Origin: Bacillota bacterium
GTDB lineage: Bacteria; Bacillota; Clostridia; Oscillospirales; Acutalibacteraceae
Reading direction: 5' to 3'
NCBI GenBank assembly: GCA_030705695.1
Contig: JAUZPX010000003.1
Span: 1-32,783, forward strand
DNA: 32,783 bases
The notes under the pieces were generated by a model. That model made no database searches, was not told the origin of the DNA, and saw only the letters and a list, made by a program, of their open reading frames with translations. This document shows positions 1-32,126 of this stretch, one piece after another (within the stretch, counting starts at the first letter, position 1; every line of letters starts with the position of its first letter). Made by a program: the position numbers and the translations under genes.

Positions 1-1039
1 CGTCTTTATCACAAATAACATAACTCAAGCTTGAGTTTTCATGAATAGTCGTATCCTGCATAATAATACAATTCGATACCTTAGCGCCTTTCGCAATGGT
101 AACTCCTTTGAAAATCACGCTGTTTTCAACTTCACCGTCTATAACACAGCCTTGAGCAACCAAAGAATTTTTAACAGAGGAAAGCAATCCGTATTTACAC
201 GGCATATCATCACGAACTTTTGTATAAATCGGACTCATTCTGTTGAAAAGCTCACGGCGAACAATCGGATCCATAAGCGACATGTTAGCATAGAAATAGC
301 TGAGTGTCGAAGTAATGGTCGCAGCATACCCTGTAAATTCATAGCCGTAAATTTTTAATTCATCAACATTTGATTGCAATAAATGCCGTTTGTAGTTAAG
401 TTTGTTTTTACTCATGCAATCGCTAATAAGCTCAATAAGCAACTTGCGTTTTATTAAAATACAGTTTATTCCGTAGTTACATTTGCCGTCGATTTTAGGA
501 TCAATTAAAATTTCGGTGGCACGCTTATTTTCATCCAGATTCAAAACAATCGGATCATAATATTTATCAGGCAATTCCTTATATAAATATACGAGCGTAA
601 TGTCAGCTTCATTCTTAATATGCGATGCAAGTACAAGGCTGTAATCTATATTGCAAACGGTATCGCAACCGCAAAGAAGCACATATTCTTCTGTTGCGTG
701 TTCGATGTATCCGATTACCGAATAGATACTTTCTATTACCGTATCAAAACGATTAATTCCGCTGCTGTACGGAGGTAAAATTGTCAAACCGCCTCTGCGT
801 TTTGAAAGGTCCCATGCTTTACCTGAACCCAAATGATCCATAAGCGATGAAAAATTATGCTTAGTAATAACTCCTACATTATTAATGCCTGAATTCACCA
901 TATTGGAAAGCGGGAAATCTATCAGCCTATACTTTCCTCCGAACGGCACAGAACCAGTTGTTCGGCGATCCGCTAGTTCAGGAATCAGTTCCTCGTTGAG
1001 GTTGGGCAAAATAAGCCCTAAAATATCGTTTCCTCTCAT
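1..1039 (-). CDS. glgD: Glucose-1-phosphate adenylyltransferase subunit GlgD (3' end truncated by window edge)
   Basis: Minus-strand frame open from ATG at 1039 to the left edge. It reads [78 protein letters not shown]..., a GlgC/GlgD-type nucleotidyltransferase without the canonical GlgC GG.G.RL motif. It follows glgC directly. Confidence 0.93.
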
Positions 1040-2256
1040 TTTGCAGCACCTCCCGGAACATGTTCGTCGATCATTGCTTTTGGCGAAACCACGGCATTTT
1101 CGCCGATTTCAAGATTATCGCCTACAACAGCAATTCCCCAATCCTGCATGTTTTCCATTTCCTCGGGTCTTGCACCTACCTTGGCGCCTTTGTGTATCAC
1201 AGCGTTTTCAGAAACGATTGCATACTGCACTACCGCTCCCTCTTCAATAACAGCACCAGGCATGATAATAGAAGCCGTCACTAATGCGTCTTTTTCAACT
1301 GTGACACCTGCAAAAAGAACTGAAAATTCAATTTCTCCCGCAATGCTACATCCGTCGGCAACAATTGAATTTTGAATAATTGCACTGTCGCTTACGTAAT
1401 GAGGCGGCATTACAGGATTTCGAGAATAGATTTTATTATTTTCTTCGCTTAAATCCAATGTAACATTGGGGTCAAGAAGATCCATATTTGCTTCCCAAAG
1501 ACTATCGATAGTTCCAACATCTTTCCAGTAACCGTTAAATTCGTAGGCGAACATTTTCTCTCCGCAGCTTAGCATCTTAGGCAAAATGTTTTTGCCGAAA
1601 TCGTTGCTGGAGTTTGTATCCGTCGCATCTTCAATAAGATATTTCTTTAACTTATCAAACGAAAATACATATATGCCCATTGAGGCTTTTGTGCTTTTCG
1701 GCTGTTGCGGTTTCTCTTCAAATTCATAAATAGAACCGTCGGTATTTGTGTTAAGTATACCAAAACGTGAGGCTTCTTCCAAATCCACATTGATAACTCC
1801 GATAGTGCAGTCGGCTTCCTTTTCCTTATGAAAGCTTATCATCTCGGCATAGTCCATCTTGTAGATATGGTCGCCTGAAAGAATAACTACGTAATCGGGG
1901 TTATATCTCTCAATGTAATTTAGATTCTGAAAAATAGCGTTTGCGGTACCCGAGTACCAATCAGCGCCGCCAACTTGCTCGTAAGGGCTAAGGCAATGTA
2001 CACCGCTGCTCATAAAATCGAGGTCCCACGGCTGACCGTTGCCTATATATTCATTTAAAACGAGCGGCTGATACTGTGTTAATACACCGACTGCTTCAAT
2101 ACCAGAATTTACGCAGTTAGATAACGGAAAGTCTATTATTCTGTACTTTCCTCCGAAAGGCACCGCCGGCTTGGCTATTTTCTTAGTCAGAACCCCCAGC
2201 CTGCTGCCTTGACCTCCGGCCAACAGCATGGCCACCACCTCTTGCTTCGGAAACAT
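1036..2256 (-). CDS. glgC: Glucose-1-phosphate adenylyltransferase (ADP-glucose pyrophosphorylase)
   Basis: ORF of 406 aa with [43 protein letters not shown], plus a C-terminal left-handed beta-helix repeat region. Confidence 0.97.
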
Positions 2257-2334
2257 ATATAACCTCCTGAATGAGTTTGTGTTTTTAAATTTATGAAACT
2301 GCTGTTATTACTCTTATACAGCAATTTGAATTTT

Positions 2335-4287
2335 TTATTCTGTTTTTGACGCTTTCTTTTTTTTCGGCTGAAGTTTTTTGGTATTCGCTAAGAATATTAC
2401 AGACATCGGCGGAAGATTTAACGACAGCGACTGATCAAATCCATGCATAGGCTCGTCGTCAGTTTTAATTTCCGTACCGTTTGTTATACCACATCCGCCA
2501 AACACAGGGCTTTCAGTGCTGAAAATCTCGCTATAAGTACCGCGTGCAGGAGCACCGATACGGTAATTTACACGTTGGACTGGCTGAAAGTTGCAAACAG
2601 CAATCAGTTCATTTCCCTTTTTATCAACTCTTCTGAATGCAATAACACTCTGAGTATAGTCATCATGAGAAATCCAGGCAAAGCCCTTCCAATCAAAATC
2701 TATTTCCCATAACATGCTGTTCTCTTTATAGAATTTGTTAATTTGCTTAAAGAATTCATTGAGTTCACGGTGTTTTGTATATTGCAAAAGCATCCAGTCG
2801 AGTTCGTTATGAGAATCCCACTCTTTGAACTGGCCAAGCTCTGAACCCATAAATGTAAGTTTTTTGCCGGGATGAGCCATCATATATGCAATAAATGTTT
2901 TTACACCTGCGAATTTTTGCTCATAGTCACCGGGAACTTTATTTATAAGAGAGCCTTTTCCGTATACGACCTCGTCATGTGAAATCGGTAACAGGAAATT
3001 CTCTGAAAATGCATACATAAATGAAAATGTCAAATTATCATGATGAAACGGACGATAAATAGGATCAAGGGACATATAATGCAGCATATCGTTCATCCAA
3101 CCCATATTCCACTTGAAATGGAAACCAAGTCCTCCTTCTTCTACAGGACGTGACACCATTGGCCATGCGGTAGATTCTTCTGCCGTCATCGAAACACCCG
3201 GGAACATTTCAGAAATATTTGTATTAAGCTTACGCAAAAAATCGACTGCTTCAAGGTTTTCTTTACCACCATAGGCATTAGGAACCCACTCGCCGTCTTT
3301 TCTGCTGTAATCAAGATAAAGCATAGACGCAACTGCATCAACACGAATTCCGTCAATATGATATACATCAAGCCAAAAAGCAGCACTAGAAAACAGAAAG
3401 CTTGCAACTTCCCAACGAGCATAATCAAAAACAAGCGTGCCCCAATCTTTATGTTCACCTTTACGCCAATCTTGATATTCATAGCAGGCTCCGCCATCAA
3501 AGCGAGCAAGTGCGTGAGCATCACGGGGAAAATGAGCAGGAACCCAGTCAATAATCACACCGATACCTGCCATATGGCATCTGTCTACAAAAAACATAAA
3601 ATCGTGAGGCGTACCGTAACGTGATGTCGGAGCAAAATAACCTGTTACCTGATAGCCCCATGAATCATCAAACGGATACTCCGTTATTGGCATAAGTTCA
3701 ATATGCGTATAACCCATATCAAGAACATACGGAATAAGCTCGTCCGCAAGTTTCTGATAATTAAAGAAGTTCCCGTCTTCATATTTTCGCCAGGAACCCG
3801 CATGAATTTCATAAACATTCATCGGAGCTTCCTTATTATTCTTCTTAGCACGGTCTTTTAGCCATTCCTCGTCGTTCCATTGATAACCTGAAATATCGTA
3901 AACCAAAGTTGCATTTTCCGGACGTGTTTGAAAATGGAATCCATATGGATCGCTTTTTAACAATTTCTCGAAATATGATGATTCAACGCAATATTTATAA
4001 ATATCATATTGCTTTATCCCTGGAATGAATGTTTCCCATGCTCCTGAGGCACTGATTTTAGTCATGTAATTTGCTGTTTTATCCCAGTTGTTAAAATCAC
4101 CGACAACCGAAACCGAAAGCGCATTTGGCGCCCATGTTCGAAACATAACACCATCAATGCCGTCTATGTTCATAAAATGCGCTCCAAAATACTCATACGC
4201 TACAAAACTATCTCCGCTGTGAAATAAATCAAGATGTGAACGATCATCGTTTTTTCGGATCATATGTTTAAACTTCTTATTTGACAT
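2335..4287 (-). CDS. glgB: 1,4-alpha-glucan branching enzyme (GH13)
   Basis: ORF of 650 aa with an N-terminal CBM48-like region (FRTWAPNALSVSVVGDFNNWD), GH13 motifs DGIRVDAVASMLYLDY, MTAEESTAWP and LLPISHDEVVYGKGSL. SD aaggagc lies upstream of the ATG. Confidence 0.97.
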   Translation of the reverse strand: MSNKKFKHMIRKNDDRSHLDLFHSGDSFVAYEYFGAHFMNIDGIDGVMFRTWAPNALSVSVVGDFNNWDKTANYMTKISASGAWETFIPGIKQYDIYKYCVESSYFEKLLKSDPYGFHFQTRPENATLVYDISGYQWNDEEWLKDRAKKNNKEAPMNVYEIHAGSWRKYEDGNFFNYQKLADELIPYVLDMGYTHIELMPITEYPFDDSWGYQVTGYFAPTSRYGTPHDFMFFVDRCHMAGIGVIIDWVPAHFPRDAHALARFDGGACYEYQDWRKGEHKDWGTLVFDYARWEVASFLFSSAAFWLDVYHIDGIRVDAVASMLYLDYSRKDGEWVPNAYGGKENLEAVDFLRKLNTNISEMFPGVSMTAEESTAWPMVSRPVEEGGLGFHFKWNMGWMNDMLHYMSLDPIYRPFHHDNLTFSFMYAFSENFLLPISHDEVVYGKGSLINKVPGDYEQKFAGVKTFIAYMMAHPGKKLTFMGSELGQFKEWDSHNELDWMLLQYTKHRELNEFFKQINKFYKENSMLWEIDFDWKGFAWISHDDYTQSVIAFRRVDKKGNELIAVCNFQPVQRVNYRIGAPARGTYSEIFSTESPVFGGCGITNGTEIKTDDEPMHGFDQSLSLNLPPMSVIFLANTKKLQPKKKKASKTE

Positions 4288-4704
4288 AGGGTCAGCTCCT
4301 TTAATTCATCGGCAAACTATCCGAAAAACTGATTTATTTATTTGAATCTTTTGATTACTTATATGTTAACAAAATCTGAGATCTGTTTCAATAGAAATTA
4401 CTAATTTTTTACGTTTTATTTTTCTATTTTTTGTAAGCTTCACAAAAAAGGACGTATCAATTAGTATATAATAAACAGAGAAAATCATTCATAAATCTAA
4501 AAAGAAAAATTTATTATATTATGCAAATGCGTAATTATTTGTTAAATTCCGTCAAAAAGATTTTTAAATTTAAATTTAAGCAATATTTTTATAAATATAA
4601 CTTTTTTTCCAAAAATGAATATGGTATAATATATAAAGTTTTTAGTGGATTATTGAATTAGCAATTTAGTATGCTAATCAATTAAAATTTGGAGGAAATG
4701 AATT

Positions 4705-5556
4705 ATGAAGAAAAAAACATTAGCATTATTATGCGCTATACTTGTAGTTACGAGTGTTATTTCATTTTCAAGCTGCAAAAAAGCAGCGAATAACCAAAAT
4801 TTTGTTGTTTTAAATGAAAAACTTGCAACAGAACAATATGGGGTTGGCTTTAGAAAAGGTGATATCGCATTAGGTCTTGAGGTTCAAAAACAACTTGATT
4901 CAATGATTTCAGACGGTACTGCCGCAAAAATCTCAACCAAGTGGTTTGGTTCCGACCAAATGATACATAATGCTTCTTTCTTGAAAGAAACCTCTGCACC
5001 TGTAGGAGATGATTCCCTGAAAAAAGTTAAAGAAAAGGGAAAGCTTATACTTGGTCTTGATGCCAGTTTCCCTCCTATGGGCTATACCGATGACAATAAC
5101 AACGTCGTCGGCTTTGACATTGACCTTGCAAAAGAAGTAGCAAAACGCATGGGCGTTACTTTGGTTCCTAAGCCGACAGACTGGGATACCATTACACTTT
5201 CTTTAAACAGCAATAAAATTGACTGCATCTGGAACGGCTTGACAATAAACAGCGATCGTTTAAAAGCAATGTTCTTTGCAAAACCTTATCTGAATAACTA
5301 TCAGGCCATCATGGTTCCTGAAGGCTCAAGCATAAAATCGGTTGCAGATCTCGCAGGAAAAAAAGTGGGATATCAAAAGGGTTCATCAGCACTTGACGCT
5401 ATCAATGCAAGCTCTGTAAAATCTTCAATTGCCAAACTATCATCTTACCCTGACAATGTTTCTGCTTTCCTCGATTTAAAAGTAGGTAGAATAGACGCTC
5501 TCGTTCTTGACAGCGTTGTAAGCAAGTATATTAGCGATAAATACAAGGATAAATAA
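4705..5556 (+). CDS. Amino-acid ABC transporter substrate-binding lipoprotein, apparently circularly permuted
   Basis: Lipoprotein signal MKKKTLALLCAILVVTSVISFSSC. Residues 32-86 (NFVVLNEKLATEQYGVGFRKGD...GTAAKISTKWFGSDQMI) match the usual C-terminal SBP segment. Residues ~103-283 (DSLKKVKEKGKLILGLDASFPPMGYTDDNNNVVGFDIDLAKEVAKRMG...VGRIDALVLDSVVSKYISDKYKDK) match the usual N-terminal and central part. Followed by permease and ATPase genes. Confidence 0.9.
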   Translation: MKKKTLALLCAILVVTSVISFSSCKKAANNQNFVVLNEKLATEQYGVGFRKGDIALGLEVQKQLDSMISDGTAAKISTKWFGSDQMIHNASFLKETSAPVGDDSLKKVKEKGKLILGLDASFPPMGYTDDNNNVVGFDIDLAKEVAKRMGVTLVPKPTDWDTITLSLNSNKIDCIWNGLTINSDRLKAMFFAKPYLNNYQAIMVPEGSSIKSVADLAGKKVGYQKGSSALDAINASSVKSSIAKLSSYPDNVSAFLDLKVGRIDALVLDSVVSKYISDKYKDK

Positions 5557-5562
5557 TATTAT

Positions 5563-6252
5563 ATGAATCTGTTTACTTTCTTGGATCTTGCACGTCAATT
5601 ATCTTATGGCGTACAATACACATTAGAGCTTTTCTTTATCACCCTGATTTTCGGCCTTCCGTTGGGACTCATACTCGGGTTAATTCGTAATGCCGGGAAA
5701 AATCTTGTTAATACACACATTAAAATCCTCGACGATGTTTTAAACACTGTAATTAGCGCAGTTGTAGGATTCTATGTTTGGATTATGCGCGGAACACCAC
5801 TTTTGCTTCAAATGGTATTCGTATATTTTGGTCTGGCAGTAATGCAAGTGGCGGCACTTGACCCATTCCCTGCCGCATGTGTGACATTTGCGCTGAACTA
5901 CGCCGCATATTTTTGCGAAATTTTTCGTGGAGGACTCCTTTCCGTTGAGAAGGGGCAGCATGAAGCCGCATCTGTACTAGGATTTACGCCGTTTAAAAAA
6001 ACAATACATATTATTATTCCTCAAATGTTTCGTGTCTGTTTGCCAACGCTTGCAAACGAATGTATTACATTAGTTAAAGACACTTCTCTTATCTATGCTT
6101 TAAGTATAACGGAAATTCTTACACTGGCAACAGATGCTGTTCGTCGTACCACTAGCCCAGCAGCTTATGTTGTTGCTGCTGTGTTTTATTTGATCTTCAC
6201 CTTTTTAATCACACAATTTTTTAAATATCTGGAAAAGAAATTTAGCTTCTAA
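5563..6252 (+). CDS. Polar amino-acid ABC transporter permease (HisM/GlnP type)
   Basis: 229 aa multi-TM protein with the EAA loop EICRGG-like EIFRGGLLSVEKGQHEAASVLGFTPFKKTIHIIIPQMFRVCLPTLANECITLVKDTSL. Confidence 0.95.
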   Translation: MNLFTFLDLARQLSYGVQYTLELFFITLIFGLPLGLILGLIRNAGKNLVNTHIKILDDVLNTVISAVVGFYVWIMRGTPLLLQMVFVYFGLAVMQVAALDPFPAACVTFALNYAAYFCEIFRGGLLSVEKGQHEAASVLGFTPFKKTIHIIIPQMFRVCLPTLANECITLVKDTSLIYALSITEILTLATDAVRRTTSPAAYVVAAVFYLIFTFLITQFFKYLEKKFSF

Positions 6253-6263
6253 GGAATTTATTT

Positions 6264-7010
6264 ATGAACAAAACCATGATTCAAGTTGCAGGCTTATGCA
6301 AACACTTCGGCGATGTAGAGGTCCTGCGAAATGTCTCTTTCACCGTTTCTAAAGGAGAAACAATTGCTGTTATCGGTCCGTCAGGTTCAGGTAAAAGCAC
6401 AATGCTTCGCTGTTTAATTAATCTTGAAAAATCAGATAACGGGACTATCGATATTGAGGGCAAAACACTTTGTAAAGACGGAATATACCAATCCAAAAAA
6501 GCTTGCCGAAGCATATGCGCCAAAATGGGTATGGTTTTTCAGAATTTTAATTTATTCCCTCATATAAGTGTCATAAATAATCTTATTTATGCACCGCATT
6601 TTGTAAAAAGGCAAGATAAAAAAGAACTTATCGTTAAAGCACATGAAATTCTTGCGAAAGTCGGACTTAGCGATAAAGAAAACGCTATGCCAAATGAGCT
6701 TTCTGGCGGGCAAAAACAGCGTGTAGCAATTGCACGTGCGTTGATGATGAACCCTGATATGTTGCTTTTTGACGAGCCGACATCTTCTCTCGACCCTCAG
6801 CTTACTGGCGAAGTCCTTGCAGTTATGAAAGAACTTGCTATGGAAAAGATGACAATGATAATTGTCACCCATGAAATGGCTTTTGCAAGAGAAGTTGCCG
6901 ATAGAATTCTTTTTATGGGCGAAAACAGTATTTTGGCTGATGACGTACCAGAAAAAATCTTTCAAAATCCAAATGAAAAAATTGCAGGATTTATAAACAG
7001 TATTATTTAA
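6264..7010 (+). CDS. Amino-acid ABC transporter ATP-binding protein (GlnQ/HisP type)
   Basis: Walker A GPSGSGKST, signature [15 protein letters not shown], Walker B MLLFDEPTSSLDPQ, H-loop VTHEM. Confidence 0.96.
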   Translation: MNKTMIQVAGLCKHFGDVEVLRNVSFTVSKGETIAVIGPSGSGKSTMLRCLINLEKSDNGTIDIEGKTLCKDGIYQSKKACRSICAKMGMVFQNFNLFPHISVINNLIYAPHFVKRQDKKELIVKAHEILAKVGLSDKENAMPNELSGGQKQRVAIARALMMNPDMLLFDEPTSSLDPQLTGEVLAVMKELAMEKMTMIIVTHEMAFAREVADRILFMGENSILADDVPEKIFQNPNEKIAGFINSII

Positions 7011-7030
7011 CTTTAACATCCAAACAAAAA

Positions 7031-7055
7031 GAGAGCCACAAAGGCTCTCTTTTTT
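7031..7055. terminator. Bidirectional intrinsic terminator between convergent genes
   Basis: gagagcc-acaaa-ggctctc stem with a T-run on the right and an A-run on the left, between the plus ATPase gene and the minus LCP gene. Confidence 0.85.
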
Positions 7056-19388: not shown

Positions 19389-20690
19389 GTCGTTAACTCT
19401 TCTCTTGCGAGCAAAGAGTACAACGCCAGCTGCTAACATCAGAACAACAAACAGAACTGTAACAGAAGTTGCCTGGCCTGTTGTTACAGAGCCACCTGGT
19501 GTAGCTGTAGTAGCTGCTGTTGTTGGAGCAACTGTAGCTACTGTTGTAGCATCTGTAGCAATTGTTGTTGGAGCAACTGTAGCATCTGTAGGAGTTACAG
19601 TTGTTGGAGTAGTTGGTTCGGTTGGTATTGTTGGTTCTGTTGGAGTTGTTGGAGCAGCTTTTACATCAATTTTCTGAGAAAGAACTGCACCGTTTGTAGC
19701 AACATTGTTAACTACGAAATCATTGAAGTTTACATCATAGCAAGAATCCATGTTGGAGTTTGCCCAGCATTGACCGTCAGCGATAACATTGAATGTTACA
19801 ACAGCAACGTCAGCACCGCCAGCAGCTGCAAATGCAGGGAAACCAGCAAGAACGGAAGCATTAAAGTTAAGTTCGCTTACGTTAGCATCATCTGTTGCAT
19901 TAGCAGTTGTACCGCCAACAACACCACTCAAATTTGGGAAAGATGCGCTTACAAATTGTAATGTTGTGTTTGAGAAATCAATTGCATCATCAATAGCAAC
20001 TACAGGAGCATCTGCTGTGCCAGCTGTTAGATGAACTGTAAATGTAACTGTATCGCCAGTTTTAACAGTAGCTGTTGATGCATCAGCAGGAACTGTTGTT
20101 GTTTGTGTTGGAACCTCTGTTGCTACTTCTGTAGGAGCAACAGTAGCATCTGTAGGAGCAACAGTAGCATCTGTAGGAGCAACAGTAGCATCTGTAGGAG
20201 CATCTGTTACAACTTCTGTAGGAGCAACTGTTGCGCCAAGTGCAGGACCATTGTAATCGATATAAGCTTTTGTGCCATCAAAACCAATAACTACTGTATC
20301 GCCGGTATTTGCAACTACAACAGTGGCATTAGCTCCGCCAAAGCTAGCATCGCCAGTCAGGTTGTATTCGCCATTATCCCAAGCATTGTTTGTAGTAATT
20401 TTGAAGTCATATGAGCCAGCTGCAACATTTGTAAATACTTTTACAATTTGGTCGGCAGGTACATATGAAGCATAAAGAGAAGATGCATCAATAGTAGCCA
20501 TGTTGTTAGCTGCATCTGCAGGCTTCCAGCCTGTTGATGTAGGATCGCTTGCTTCGCAAAGACCTTGCGCACCAGCTACGGTGTAGATTTTTGTTGTATC
20601 AACAGTGGCAAAAGCAGTAACGGAAGCAATGCATGTCATTGTTGCAACCAAAGCTATTGCTAAAATGATACCAAGTGATTTTTTGAACAT
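19389..20690 (-). CDS. Surface-anchored protein: signal peptide, X25/starch-binding-like module, Thr/Pro linker, cohesin-like domain, Thr/Pro linker, C-terminal TM
   Basis: Signal peptide MFKKSLGIILAIALVATMTCIASVTAFA. Residues ~34-146 (IYTVAGAQGLCEASDPTSTGW...YDFKITTNNAWDNGEYNLTG...) resemble X25/starch-binding modules. Residues ~206-344 (STATVKTGDTVTFTVHLTAG...IDFSNTTLQFVSASFPNL...ADVAVVTFNVIADG...) resemble a cohesin. Repeated ATVAPTD linkers. C-terminus TVLFVVLMLAAGVVLFARKRRVND. Domain names are by eye only. Confidence 0.7.
20128..20202. repeat. 21-bp tandem repeat (tctgtaggagcaacagtagca), ~3.6 copies
   Basis: Perfect copies at 20128-20148, 20149-20169 and 20170-20190, then a partial copy. 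Encodes (ATVAPTD)n on the minus strand. Confidence 0.95.
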
Positions 20691-28036: not shown

Positions 28037-29698
28037 TTATTTTGTAGCCAAAATTGCCGTCGAATACGGCGGAATATGCAATGTTCCGTCGCTATCTAAA
28101 GTAATGTGAGGAATCGTCTTTTTTCCGCTTCCGTCATCTATTTGACCACATCCCACTAAATCTGCAATAATTTTAGGATTTTTAATCATTTTGTCGGTGA
28201 TTTTCAACGCTTTTGTTGTATCACTGCTTAAATTATGAATTATAAGCATATCTTTACCCTGATAGGTATTGATATAAGCACCGATATTGATATCACCAAA
28301 ATCAACGACCTGCGTTATTGTTCCTCTGGCAATCCCGGGATTTTGATCCTTAATCTTTATAATTCTTCGATAATAATTTAAAAGTGACTGTGAATCTGCC
28401 AATTGAGTTTCAACGCTACCAGCTTTAGGAATGTTCGGGTCAACAACACCCGGAGGTAAATCTGTAATTCCTTTTGTATTCTTAGTTGACCAAATCATCG
28501 GCGTACGTTTGGAAGCATCTGTAGAAATACTTGTCATTCCCAGTTCTTCACCATAATAAGTAAAGGAGTTACCCGGGAAAAGCATATACAATGCTGCTGC
28601 TGCTTTTTCCATTGAAAGCTGCTCCCAAAGATCTGAAGCACTGCGCACCTGATCATGATTTGAAAGAAAGTTTGCATCTATGCCATTCGGATTCGACTTT
28701 TTAAAAATTTCTTGCCAATTTTTCATTTTTGAAACAGCAAAACCTGAATTTGAACGAACAGCACTTATATAAAAACCTCCTACCTCAGAAAACGGGAAAT
28801 TAAACAAGCTGTCAATACCTGATTTATAGTTATCTGATATCTGTGCGTTGCCTTCCCAGTCCTCGCCTACCATGTAGATATCGCTTTTTAAAGTTTTAGC
28901 CGTTCCGTAAAGCCATGTCAAAAAGCTTTCACTTGTAATATTTGTATCATTATAATACTTAACTGCATCAAGTCTGAAACCGTCAACACCACGATCAAGC
29001 CAGAACTTCATAATTTTTTTGAATTCATCTCTTGTGCATTGCTGTGTTAAATCCCATTCTGGCATTTCACCACCGAAATTTGCTTCGTAATACCAATTAT
29101 CTGTTCCTGATACTGGCTTATAACCACCTGGCTGAACACTTGCCTGTTTAAAGCAAAAATATTTGGCATCATGAGTTGAATCACCATTTCGAAGCTCTTC
29201 ACATGCCTTTTTAAACAGAGGCAGTGAACTTGAACAGTGATTAATAACAAGATCAAGAATAACTTTGACGCCACGTTTATGTGCAGCTGACATAAGATTA
29301 TCGAAATCTTTCAGTGTACCGTATGCTGGATCAACATTATAATAATCGGTAACGTCATACTTATGATACGATGGTGAAGACATAATAGGCATCAACCAAA
29401 TACCGTCGGCACCAAGGTCATTACCGCTGTTTGGATTTCCGTCATTTATATAATCCAGTTTTTGGGTAAGACCGTTTAAATCGCCTGTCCCATCATTGTT
29501 GCTGTCATAAAATGAGTTGACAAATACTTCATAATAATTTCTGTACTTATCTGTTGAAGCTGTTGCCTTGACTCCTTCTATTGGATCTTTGTATGCAACA
29601 TTAGCTTGTCCGGAAGAAGATGCTTGCTGAGTGCATCCTGTAAGAAAAACAGTGGCTGTAAGGCACAGCACCAAAATTCCTGAAATAAACTTTTTCAT
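28037..29698 (-). CDS. Alpha-amylase family (GH13) lipoprotein
   Basis: Lipobox LTGC in MKKFISGILVLCLTATVFLTGC. GH13 motifs DLVINH, DGFRLDAVKYY, MVGEDWEG, FLSNHDQVR. No dockerin-like region is visible. Confidence 0.94.
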   Translation of the reverse strand: MKKFISGILVLCLTATVFLTGCTQQASSSGQANVAYKDPIEGVKATASTDKYRNYYEVFVNSFYDSNNDGTGDLNGLTQKLDYINDGNPNSGNDLGADGIWLMPIMSSPSYHKYDVTDYYNVDPAYGTLKDFDNLMSAAHKRGVKVILDLVINHCSSSLPLFKKACEELRNGDSTHDAKYFCFKQASVQPGGYKPVSGTDNWYYEANFGGEMPEWDLTQQCTRDEFKKIMKFWLDRGVDGFRLDAVKYYNDTNITSESFLTWLYGTAKTLKSDIYMVGEDWEGNAQISDNYKSGIDSLFNFPFSEVGGFYISAVRSNSGFAVSKMKNWQEIFKKSNPNGIDANFLSNHDQVRSASDLWEQLSMEKAAAALYMLFPGNSFTYYGEELGMTSISTDASKRTPMIWSTKNTKGITDLPPGVVDPNIPKAGSVETQLADSQSLLNYYRRIIKIKDQNPGIARGTITQVVDFGDINIGAYINTYQGKDMLIIHNLSSDTTKALKITDKMIKNPKIIADLVGCGQIDDGSGKKTIPHITLDSDGTLHIPPYSTAILATK

Positions 29699-29734
29699 AA
29701 TAACACCTCAATACATAAAAACATTAAATTTCAG

Positions 29735-29767
29735 AAAAACAGAGGCAGAAGATAATCTACTGCCTCT
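29735..29767 (-). terminator. Intercistronic terminator-like hairpin between malG and amylase
   Basis: agaggcag (29741-29748) / ctgcctct (29760-29767); minus-strand transcript continues gtttttctg. Confidence 0.7.
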
Positions 29768-29778
29768 AGTTTTATAAG

Positions 29779-30639
29779 TTAACCTTTGACTGCGCCACCT
29801 GTGACGCCTTCTACATAGAATTTCTGCAATTTTAAGAAGAGTAGAGTAATTGGAACTGCAATGAGTACCGAACCTGCACAGAAATACAGATATTGAGTAT
29901 TGATATTTTCGGAATTTACCATCTGCAATAACATATATGCAATAGTAAAGTTTTCCGGGTGATTTGGTCCGATAATAAAACCTATGAAGATAAAATCGCA
30001 CCAAGGACCGATAAACGAAGTTAAAATGGTGTAAATTACAATAGGCTTTGACATTGGCAAAATAATTTTCCAGAAAATCTGGTTTTTTGTTGCTCCGTCA
30101 ATTGTTGCCGCTTCATCCAGCGCTCTTGGAATTGTATCAAAAAAGCCTTTTGAAATTAAGTATCCAAGACCCGCAGTAGCCGAATAGCAAATAATCAGTG
30201 AAACTAATCTGCCATCAAGATTCATTGCTTTAAGCAAATAATAGATAGCGATCATTGTCATGAATCCAGGGAACATTCCTAAAATCATACCAATATTAAT
30301 GAAGAATTTACGTGTTTTAAAACGCAAGCGGCTAAATGTATAGCTAACCATCAAAACTGAGAATGTAGACAAAACACAAGAACAACAAGCAACGAACAAT
30401 GTGTTGGTAAAGCAGTGTAGATAGTTAAATGTTGTATCATTATTTGTGAAAAGCTCTATATAGTTGTTAAGCGTCCAGTCTTGCGGTATAAGATAAACTG
30501 GTGCAACACCGCCAGTAGCACGAAATGATGTCATAATCAAATCCGCAATCGGCAACACCCAAATAATACATAAAACCGAAAGAAAAATGTAAATCAGCGT
30601 GTTTGAAATAATTCTTCTTGCCTTATAACTTTTTATCAT
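29779..30639 (-). CDS. malG: Maltose/maltodextrin-type ABC transporter permease (MalG type)
   Basis: 286 aa, EAA motif EAATIDGATKNQIFWKIILPMSKPIVIYTIL, C-terminal FYVEGVTGGAVKG typical of MalG. Confidence 0.94.
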   Translation of the reverse strand: MIKSYKARRIISNTLIYIFLSVLCIIWVLPIADLIMTSFRATGGVAPVYLIPQDWTLNNYIELFTNNDTTFNYLHCFTNTLFVACCSCVLSTFSVLMVSYTFSRLRFKTRKFFINIGMILGMFPGFMTMIAIYYLLKAMNLDGRLVSLIICYSATAGLGYLISKGFFDTIPRALDEAATIDGATKNQIFWKIILPMSKPIVIYTILTSFIGPWCDFIFIGFIIGPNHPENFTIAYMLLQMVNSENINTQYLYFCAGSVLIAVPITLLFLKLQKFYVEGVTGGAVKG

Positions 30640-32126
30640 GAGAATTCCTCCTCATTACGCGCTGATTTAGACATATTAAATGTAATCAATGTAAATGCGG
30701 CGCAAATAATAAACACAATAATACCGATTGTTGCTGCGAGCTTGAAGTTTGAATCAACGGTTGTCAATTTAAACAGCCATGTAACAAGCAAGTCTGTTTG
30801 CCCAGCCTGATAGTAATTTGCCGTTGCCGGACCGCCGTTAGTAAGTAGATAAATAACGTTAAAGTTATTTAAGTTACCTACAAATTGAGTAATCAAATAC
30901 GGTGTGGTAACAAACAACATATACGGTAATGTGATTTTTGTAAATGTTTTGAAAGGACTTGCTCCATCAATACGTGCCGACTCATAAAGCTCTTCCGGAA
31001 TATTCATAAGAATACCGCTGGTAATCAAAATTGTATAGGGAATACCTACCCATAAATTGACAATAAGAACGGTTGCTTTCGGAAGAATCGAATTAACCTT
31101 ATCCAAAAATTGAATCGGAGCATGCGTAATTCCGTAAGATTGCAATAAAGTATTAACAATACCTGTATCTTGAAGCATTTGATTCATAAACAACAATGTA
31201 ACAAACTGTGGTACTGCAATTGTCAGAACAAACATTGTTCTGAATAAAGATTTACACTTAATACCTTTTTTGTTAATCATTAATGCCAATATCATTCCAA
31301 GGATATAGTTACTGAAAGTTGCAATAATAGCCCACACAAATGTCCATTCCGTAAGTTTTTTAAATGTATAAGCCTTTAGAGGGTTACCGCCTAAAATATC
31401 GTGAAAGTTTTGTGTTCCTACCCACTGGAATAAGTATGCCTGTGGCTGATGGTTTGAATCGAAATTAGTAAAGGCAATTAATATCATAAAGATCAGTGGT
31501 ATGATAAGAAAAACCGAAATCATTACGATAGGATATGTCAATAATGTTGTATGATATCTCTTATCAAACAGATCTCTAAATTCCGAAATAAAGCTTGCAG
31601 GTTTTCTTCCTTCTTTTACATCTGTTTCAACTTTATATGCCATTTTCGTACTTGCAACATAAATAAAGAAAACAGCAATTGAAATAAGAATAGTCATAAC
31701 GCTGTATAAAAGGATGTGCATTGAGTTATCGCCATTAACTAAAATATTACACTCTGCAAGACCTGACTTTTGCTGAATTAATCCTAATGTCGGAAACATT
31801 TGCAAATAACCCCAGCCAAAGTTAATCATGAATAATATGTATGAAAATTCAATTGCAAGAAGTAAAATTCCTTTAATAATTTGTCCGCGAACAATATTAC
31901 CAAAACCCATAATTACAAATGAAATTTTGGTTGCGAAATCTCCGCGAATAAAACGAAGGAAATAGTTTTTAATTCCAAATACAATTCCTAATAAAAATCC
32001 TAAAATAGCTTTCCCAAGAAAAATAATTCCATTTCCAATATTTTTGGGTAAATTTTTAAACCCTTGTATGGTTTTGAATATGGTTCTTTGAAAGGCACTT
32101 TTACTGGCATAATCAATATAATTCAT
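30636..32126 (-). CDS. malF: Maltose/maltodextrin-type ABC transporter permease (MalF type, extended N-terminus)
   Basis: 496 aa, EAA motif ESARIDGASPFKTFTKITLPYMLFVTTPYLITQFVGNLNNFNVIYLLTNGGP. The 3' end overlaps the malG start. Confidence 0.94.
   Translation of the reverse strand: MNYIDYASKSAFQRTIFKTIQGFKNLPKNIGNGIIFLGKAILGFLLGIVFGIKNYFLRFIRGDFATKISFVIMGFGNIVRGQIIKGILLLAIEFSYILFMINFGWGYLQMFPTLGLIQQKSGLAECNILVNGDNSMHILLYSVMTILISIAVFFIYVASTKMAYKVETDVKEGRKPASFISEFRDLFDKRYHTTLLTYPIVMISVFLIIPLIFMILIAFTNFDSNHQPQAYLFQWVGTQNFHDILGGNPLKAYTFKKLTEWTFVWAIIATFSNYILGMILALMINKKGIKCKSLFRTMFVLTIAVPQFVTLLFMNQMLQDTGIVNTLLQSYGITHAPIQFLDKVNSILPKATVLIVNLWVGIPYTILITSGILMNIPEELYESARIDGASPFKTFTKITLPYMLFVTTPYLITQFVGNLNNFNVIYLLTNGGPATANYYQAGQTDLLVTWLFKLTTVDSNFKLAATIGIIVFIICAAFTLITFNMSKSARNEEEFS

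Follow-up and report, generated by a model that had tools for sequence, protein, structure and literature searches.

A circularly permuted lipoprotein of the amino-acid-binding SBP family in a probable gut Clostridia bacterium

Binding proteins of ABC importers and the order of their parts

A binding protein of an ABC importer whose chain has been rotated has been described, but it belongs to a different fold class from the protein considered here. TpMglB-2 (Tp0684) of Treponema pallidum, assigned to Type Ic / cluster Bc, is a lipid-anchored glucose SBP that is naturally circularly permuted, binds its ligand and changes conformation, and has homologues in treponemes and Gram-positive gut bacteria (PMC4990184). 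It has the type I sugar-binding fold, with its first three N-lobe strands moved to the C-terminus and an added fourth crossover, and the moved part matches poorly in sequence (13%). Its authors proposed an anchoring benefit for their case. I found no report of natural permutation in a type II amino-acid SBP, in a literature search that leaves out most subscription papers and preprints.

The family 3 amino-acid SBPs (SBP_bac_3, PF00497; type II / cluster F), such as HisJ, GlnBP, T. maritima ArgBP and AncQR, are built of three segments, which I call A (the N-terminal part of lobe 1), B (lobe 2) and C (the C-terminal segment of lobe 1 with the second hinge strand). The canonical order is A-B-C. 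In the tandem SBD importers of the GlnPQ type (e.g. the chain of 6h30), two such domains lie head to tail, each complete and canonical, fused to the permease, so that C of the first abuts A of the second.

The sequence at issue lies in a stretch of 32,783 nucleotides (the window) from a Bacillota bacterium of the family Acutalibacteraceae, NCBI GenBank assembly GCA_030705695.1, contig JAUZPX010000003.1, positions 1 to 32,783 of the forward strand. A first-pass annotation claimed that the gene at 4705-5556 encodes a lipoprotein with its C-terminal segment transposed to the front, plausibly through duplication and then truncation. The analysis confirms the observation and supports the interpretation. 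The features are these:

4692..4704 (+), Shine-Dalgarno-like GGAGG (at about 4692) and spacer before the SBP start
4705..5556 (+), circularly permuted (C-A-B) lipoprotein of SBP_bac_3 type, inferred to bind amino acids, 283 aa, beginning with ATG
4705..4776 (+), lipoprotein signal peptide with lipobox FSSC (Cys24), identified by inspection, the Cys being invariant in the set A1
4801..4950 (+), segment C, the canonical C-terminal part of lobe 1 with the second hinge strand (residues 33-82)
4951..5034 (+), linker joining the ancestral C- and N-termini (about residues 83-110)
5038..5304 (+), segment A, the N-terminal part of lobe 1 with the T180/R185 ligand motif (residues 112-200)
5326..5529 (+), segment B, lobe 2 with the S227/S228 loop and invariant D269 (residues 208-275)
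5563..6252 (+), permease, BPD_transp_1 (PF00528, E 3.2e-19)
6264..7010 (+), ABC ATPase (PF00005, E 1.7e-38)
7026..7054 (+), terminator-like hairpin closing the operon, a 12-bp stem with a T-run, by consensus match only

A binding protein in the order C-A-B

The protein matches PF00497 with 126.7 bits against a cut-off of 26.4, and no type I SBP family appeared in the Pfam scan. A phmmer search against PDB chains places residues 111-273 on residues 9-171 of AncQR 4zv1 (130 bits, E 8e-37) and residues 30-82 on its C-terminal segment, chain residues 180-232 (E 9.7e-5), in swapped order. No PDB chain matched permuted proteins collinearly as a single domain, and the only spanning alignments run across the two domains of tandem GlnPQ 6h30. 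To avoid circularity, I built profiles of the three segments from 63 canonical relatives only. The C profile hits residues 33-82 with 71.9 bits (E 4.4e-21), where the best of 2000 shuffles reached 6.6 bits, the A profile hits residues 112-200 with 125.8 bits (E 8.7e-38), and the B profile hits residues 208-275 with 76.0 bits (E 3.8e-22). No other ORF of the window carries a C-like segment, the next best having 6.3 bits, and the ATG of the permease follows 7 nt after the stop, so no C segment is left downstream. Two observations that might have undone the first-pass annotation thus do not: the N-terminal segment does match the canonical C-terminus, and no canonical C segment lies downstream. 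Its boundaries need small corrections, since it put the moved segment at residues 32-86 and the linker at about 20 residues. The C segment is residues 33-82/86, and the linker that joins the old ends is about 20-28 residues long (83-110). The median C-A linker in C-A-B proteins is 20.5 aa.

An AlphaFold2 model, computed from a 16-row alignment (the window protein, a related locus L034, and segments of canonical relatives), is confident (pLDDT 86.5, pTM 0.80). Confidence is low only in the signal peptide (around 50) and dips in the linker (64 at residues 91-100) and at the last residues (67). Foldseek, which is sequential and not permutation-aware, matches the model to type II amino-acid SBPs such as T. 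maritima ArgBP (6ggp, E 3e-16) over the A-B part, about 177 columns (TMq 0.37-0.58). The bilobal type II fold is predicted by a model rather than seen in a solved structure. A member of a second C-A-B subfamily (locus L038, 5004-5897) models at pLDDT 79.8 and pTM 0.67.

The positions expected from HisJ, LAO and GlnBP to contact an alpha-amino acid are preserved in all three segment orders found among the relatives (see the next section). The lobe-2 Asp, D269, is found in 115 of 115 units, the lobe-1 Arg, R185, in 105 of 115, and T/S180 and the S/T227-228 loop are likewise kept. The substrate is not resolved beyond "amino acid": NCBIfam gives no family above cut-off, and its models for Lys/Arg/Orn, cystine and Gln SBPs all score below it. 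With only one permease gene in the operon, the transporter presumably uses a permease homodimer, which might make a swap of the anchored lobe easier to tolerate.

Around the importer lies a starch and glycogen region, with two ADP-glucose-pyrophosphorylase-like genes and a branching-enzyme-like gene on one side (window 1-4287, - strand; these three by sequence inspection only) and a lipoprotein alpha-amylase with ABC permease genes on the other (window 28040-32126, - strand). Between them, at 19389-20690 on the - strand, is a gene for a secreted 433-aa protein with a weak Pullulanase X25 match, Thr/Pro-rich tandem repeats (a perfect 21-bp repeat at 20128-20202) and a C-terminal hydrophobic anchor with basic tail. 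Its antisense strand reads as long Cys-rich open frames.

Recurrent permutation in related genomes

When segment profiles were applied to related loci, three orders were found: A-B-C, C-A-B, and a second permutation, B-C-A, cut at the other hinge crossover. In 250 genomes of the window's family searched with the window-type alignment, C-A-B proteins were verified in 17, including the window's own, and B-C-A proteins in 7 of the loci retrieved from that search, all of these being lower bounds. Samples of 157 genomes across the class gave 4 genomes with window-type C-A-B (including the window), 8 with the second C-A-B subfamily and 9 with B-C-A. Sampling of the phylum at strict thresholds gave permuted forms only within the window's class, although weaker or other permuted lineages elsewhere could have been missed, because only the top candidates per genome were scored. 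Nearly every permuted SBP whose flanking sequence was at hand precedes a permease and ATPase. Two B-C-A proteins are fused to the permease in one chain (loci L050, 1408-2937, and L105, 1330-2940), so that the permease is joined through the hinge end of segment A rather than the canonical C-terminus. At loci L128 (ORFs 666-1415 and 1497-2300 on the reverse strand) and L132 (1233-2833), a canonical SBP gene lies directly before a B-C-A gene, followed by permease and ATPase. The two are 44-45% identical in segment A, and two SBPs of different topology seem to serve one transporter. Some single genomes also carry both a C-A-B and a B-C-A protein (loci L107 and L122 in genome G722, L108 and L120 in genome G693).

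All proteins were then re-ordered to A+B+C and trees built from them, resting on 212 columns. Permuted and canonical SBPs alternate on these trees, and strongly supported branches alone force at least 7 changes for C-A-B and 4 for B-C-A, counting possible reversions; the canonical proteins of loci L005 and L073 sit inside a C-A-B clade. AU tests reject a single clade for C-A-B (p 9e-4), for B-C-A (p 9e-47), for window-type C-A-B (p 0.002) and for all permuted proteins together (p 2e-5). The best pair is L067 (C-A-B) and L005 (A-B-C), whose parts align in swapped order with 67% and 57% identity, whose segments A, B and C are 77%, 65% and 71% identical, and whose permeases are 73% identical. The L067 linker reads largely as the L005 C-terminal tail followed by the L005 mature N-terminal stretch, as permutation by duplication predicts. 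BLAST also aligned the signal peptides of P0001 and L067 to the end of lobe 2, which I treat as a hydrophobic chance extension. A second pair, at 72% and 56%, is formed by L052 (B-C-A) and L002, the canonical SBP of the window's own genome and the one further SBP hit it carries, on contig 135.

Candidate precursors, in-frame ABC-ABC proteins, are present in the same family of bacteria. The copies are 100/100/96% identical by segment in L135 (ORF of 760 aa), 98/92/80% in L009 (ORF of 787 aa) and 89/88/59% in L090. Those of L135 and L009 are SBP-SBP-permease fusions of the GlnPQ type, with very recent internal duplications. The tandem protein of L090 is the nearest relative of the window protein on the tree, with only moderate support (86-90% bootstrap).

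Origin and consequences of the permuted order

I propose, with high confidence, that the gene encodes the naturally permuted binding protein of an amino-acid ABC importer and that it arose by in-frame tandem duplication of the SBP domain (ABC-ABC) followed by loss of the first A-B and of the last C, leaving C-A-B behind a lipoprotein signal. The duplication and truncation are well supported by the tandem proteins, but the exact deletion steps are inferred. No CABC or ABCAB intermediate was seen. The chain should refold into the ordinary type II SBP, close on an alpha-amino acid by the Venus-flytrap mechanism, and hand it to the permease and ATPase encoded just downstream, binding and transport being inferred. 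The lipid anchor is likewise inferred to have left lobe 1 and to enter at lobe 2 beside the hinge, on a tether of about 8 residues. The median tether from the Cys to the first segment is 9 residues in C-A-B proteins, 8.5 in B-C-A proteins and 20 in canonical proteins, although the last number includes the first helix. In comparison with TpMglB-2, the fold class, ligand class and cut site all differ, and the moved part here retains a match of about 50-58%.

It might be supposed that two neighboring SBP genes were wrongly joined in a metagenome assembly, since the window comes from one of 236 contigs. This is refuted by recurrence: the same order, in one open frame and the same operon, is found in at least 16 other genomes of the family and in other families, and conservation spans the junction. 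It is also very unlikely that the N-terminal 50 residues are a fused or decoy fragment of another SBP attached to a truncated, non-functional protein. The C segments are only about 49-58% identical to those of the nearest relatives, so the segment could come from a paralogue, but C-A-B proteins are kept across diverse genera with ligand residues intact, nearly all in intact transporter operons, and the model packs the chain confidently. Nor is it likely that the repeated changes of order are an artefact of recombination or long branches and that permutation arose only once or twice. The columns are few, some nodes are unresolved, and reversals count as changes, yet the strongly supported branches and the AU tests speak against it, and mixed-order sister pairs agree in all three segments and in their permeases.

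A different matter is whether the permuted protein works in a changed way, anchoring through lobe 2 having been selected because it alters docking or tethering on the permease. The first-pass annotation had suggested that docking geometry could be altered. Both cut sites put the anchored N-terminus at lobe 2 beside the hinge, the tethers are short, and an anchoring benefit was proposed for TpMglB-2 (PMC4990184). However, hinge-adjacent loops may just be the only tolerated cut sites, and orthologous operons use either order, which fits neutrality. I regard the idea as doubtful. Equally tentative is the broader view that in Clostridia the chain order of amino-acid SBPs is evolutionarily fluid, the same fold having been re-cut repeatedly, in both directions, at two hinge-adjacent loops, with each move of the anchor selected for its effect at the permease.

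In practical terms, Pfam and NCBIfam models match such proteins only in part or in two pieces, so collinear coverage filters may misjudge them, while the proteins themselves are ready-made permuted scaffolds for SBP-based biosensors. Orthologous transporters that differ in chain order also give natural controls for whether the anchored lobe matters in SBP-permease docking. Natural circular permutation is usually inferred across distant homologues. Here orthologous transporters with about 70% identical parts differ in chain order, with tandem-duplicated likely intermediates in the same family of bacteria, so the route, permutation by duplication, can be followed nearly step by step.
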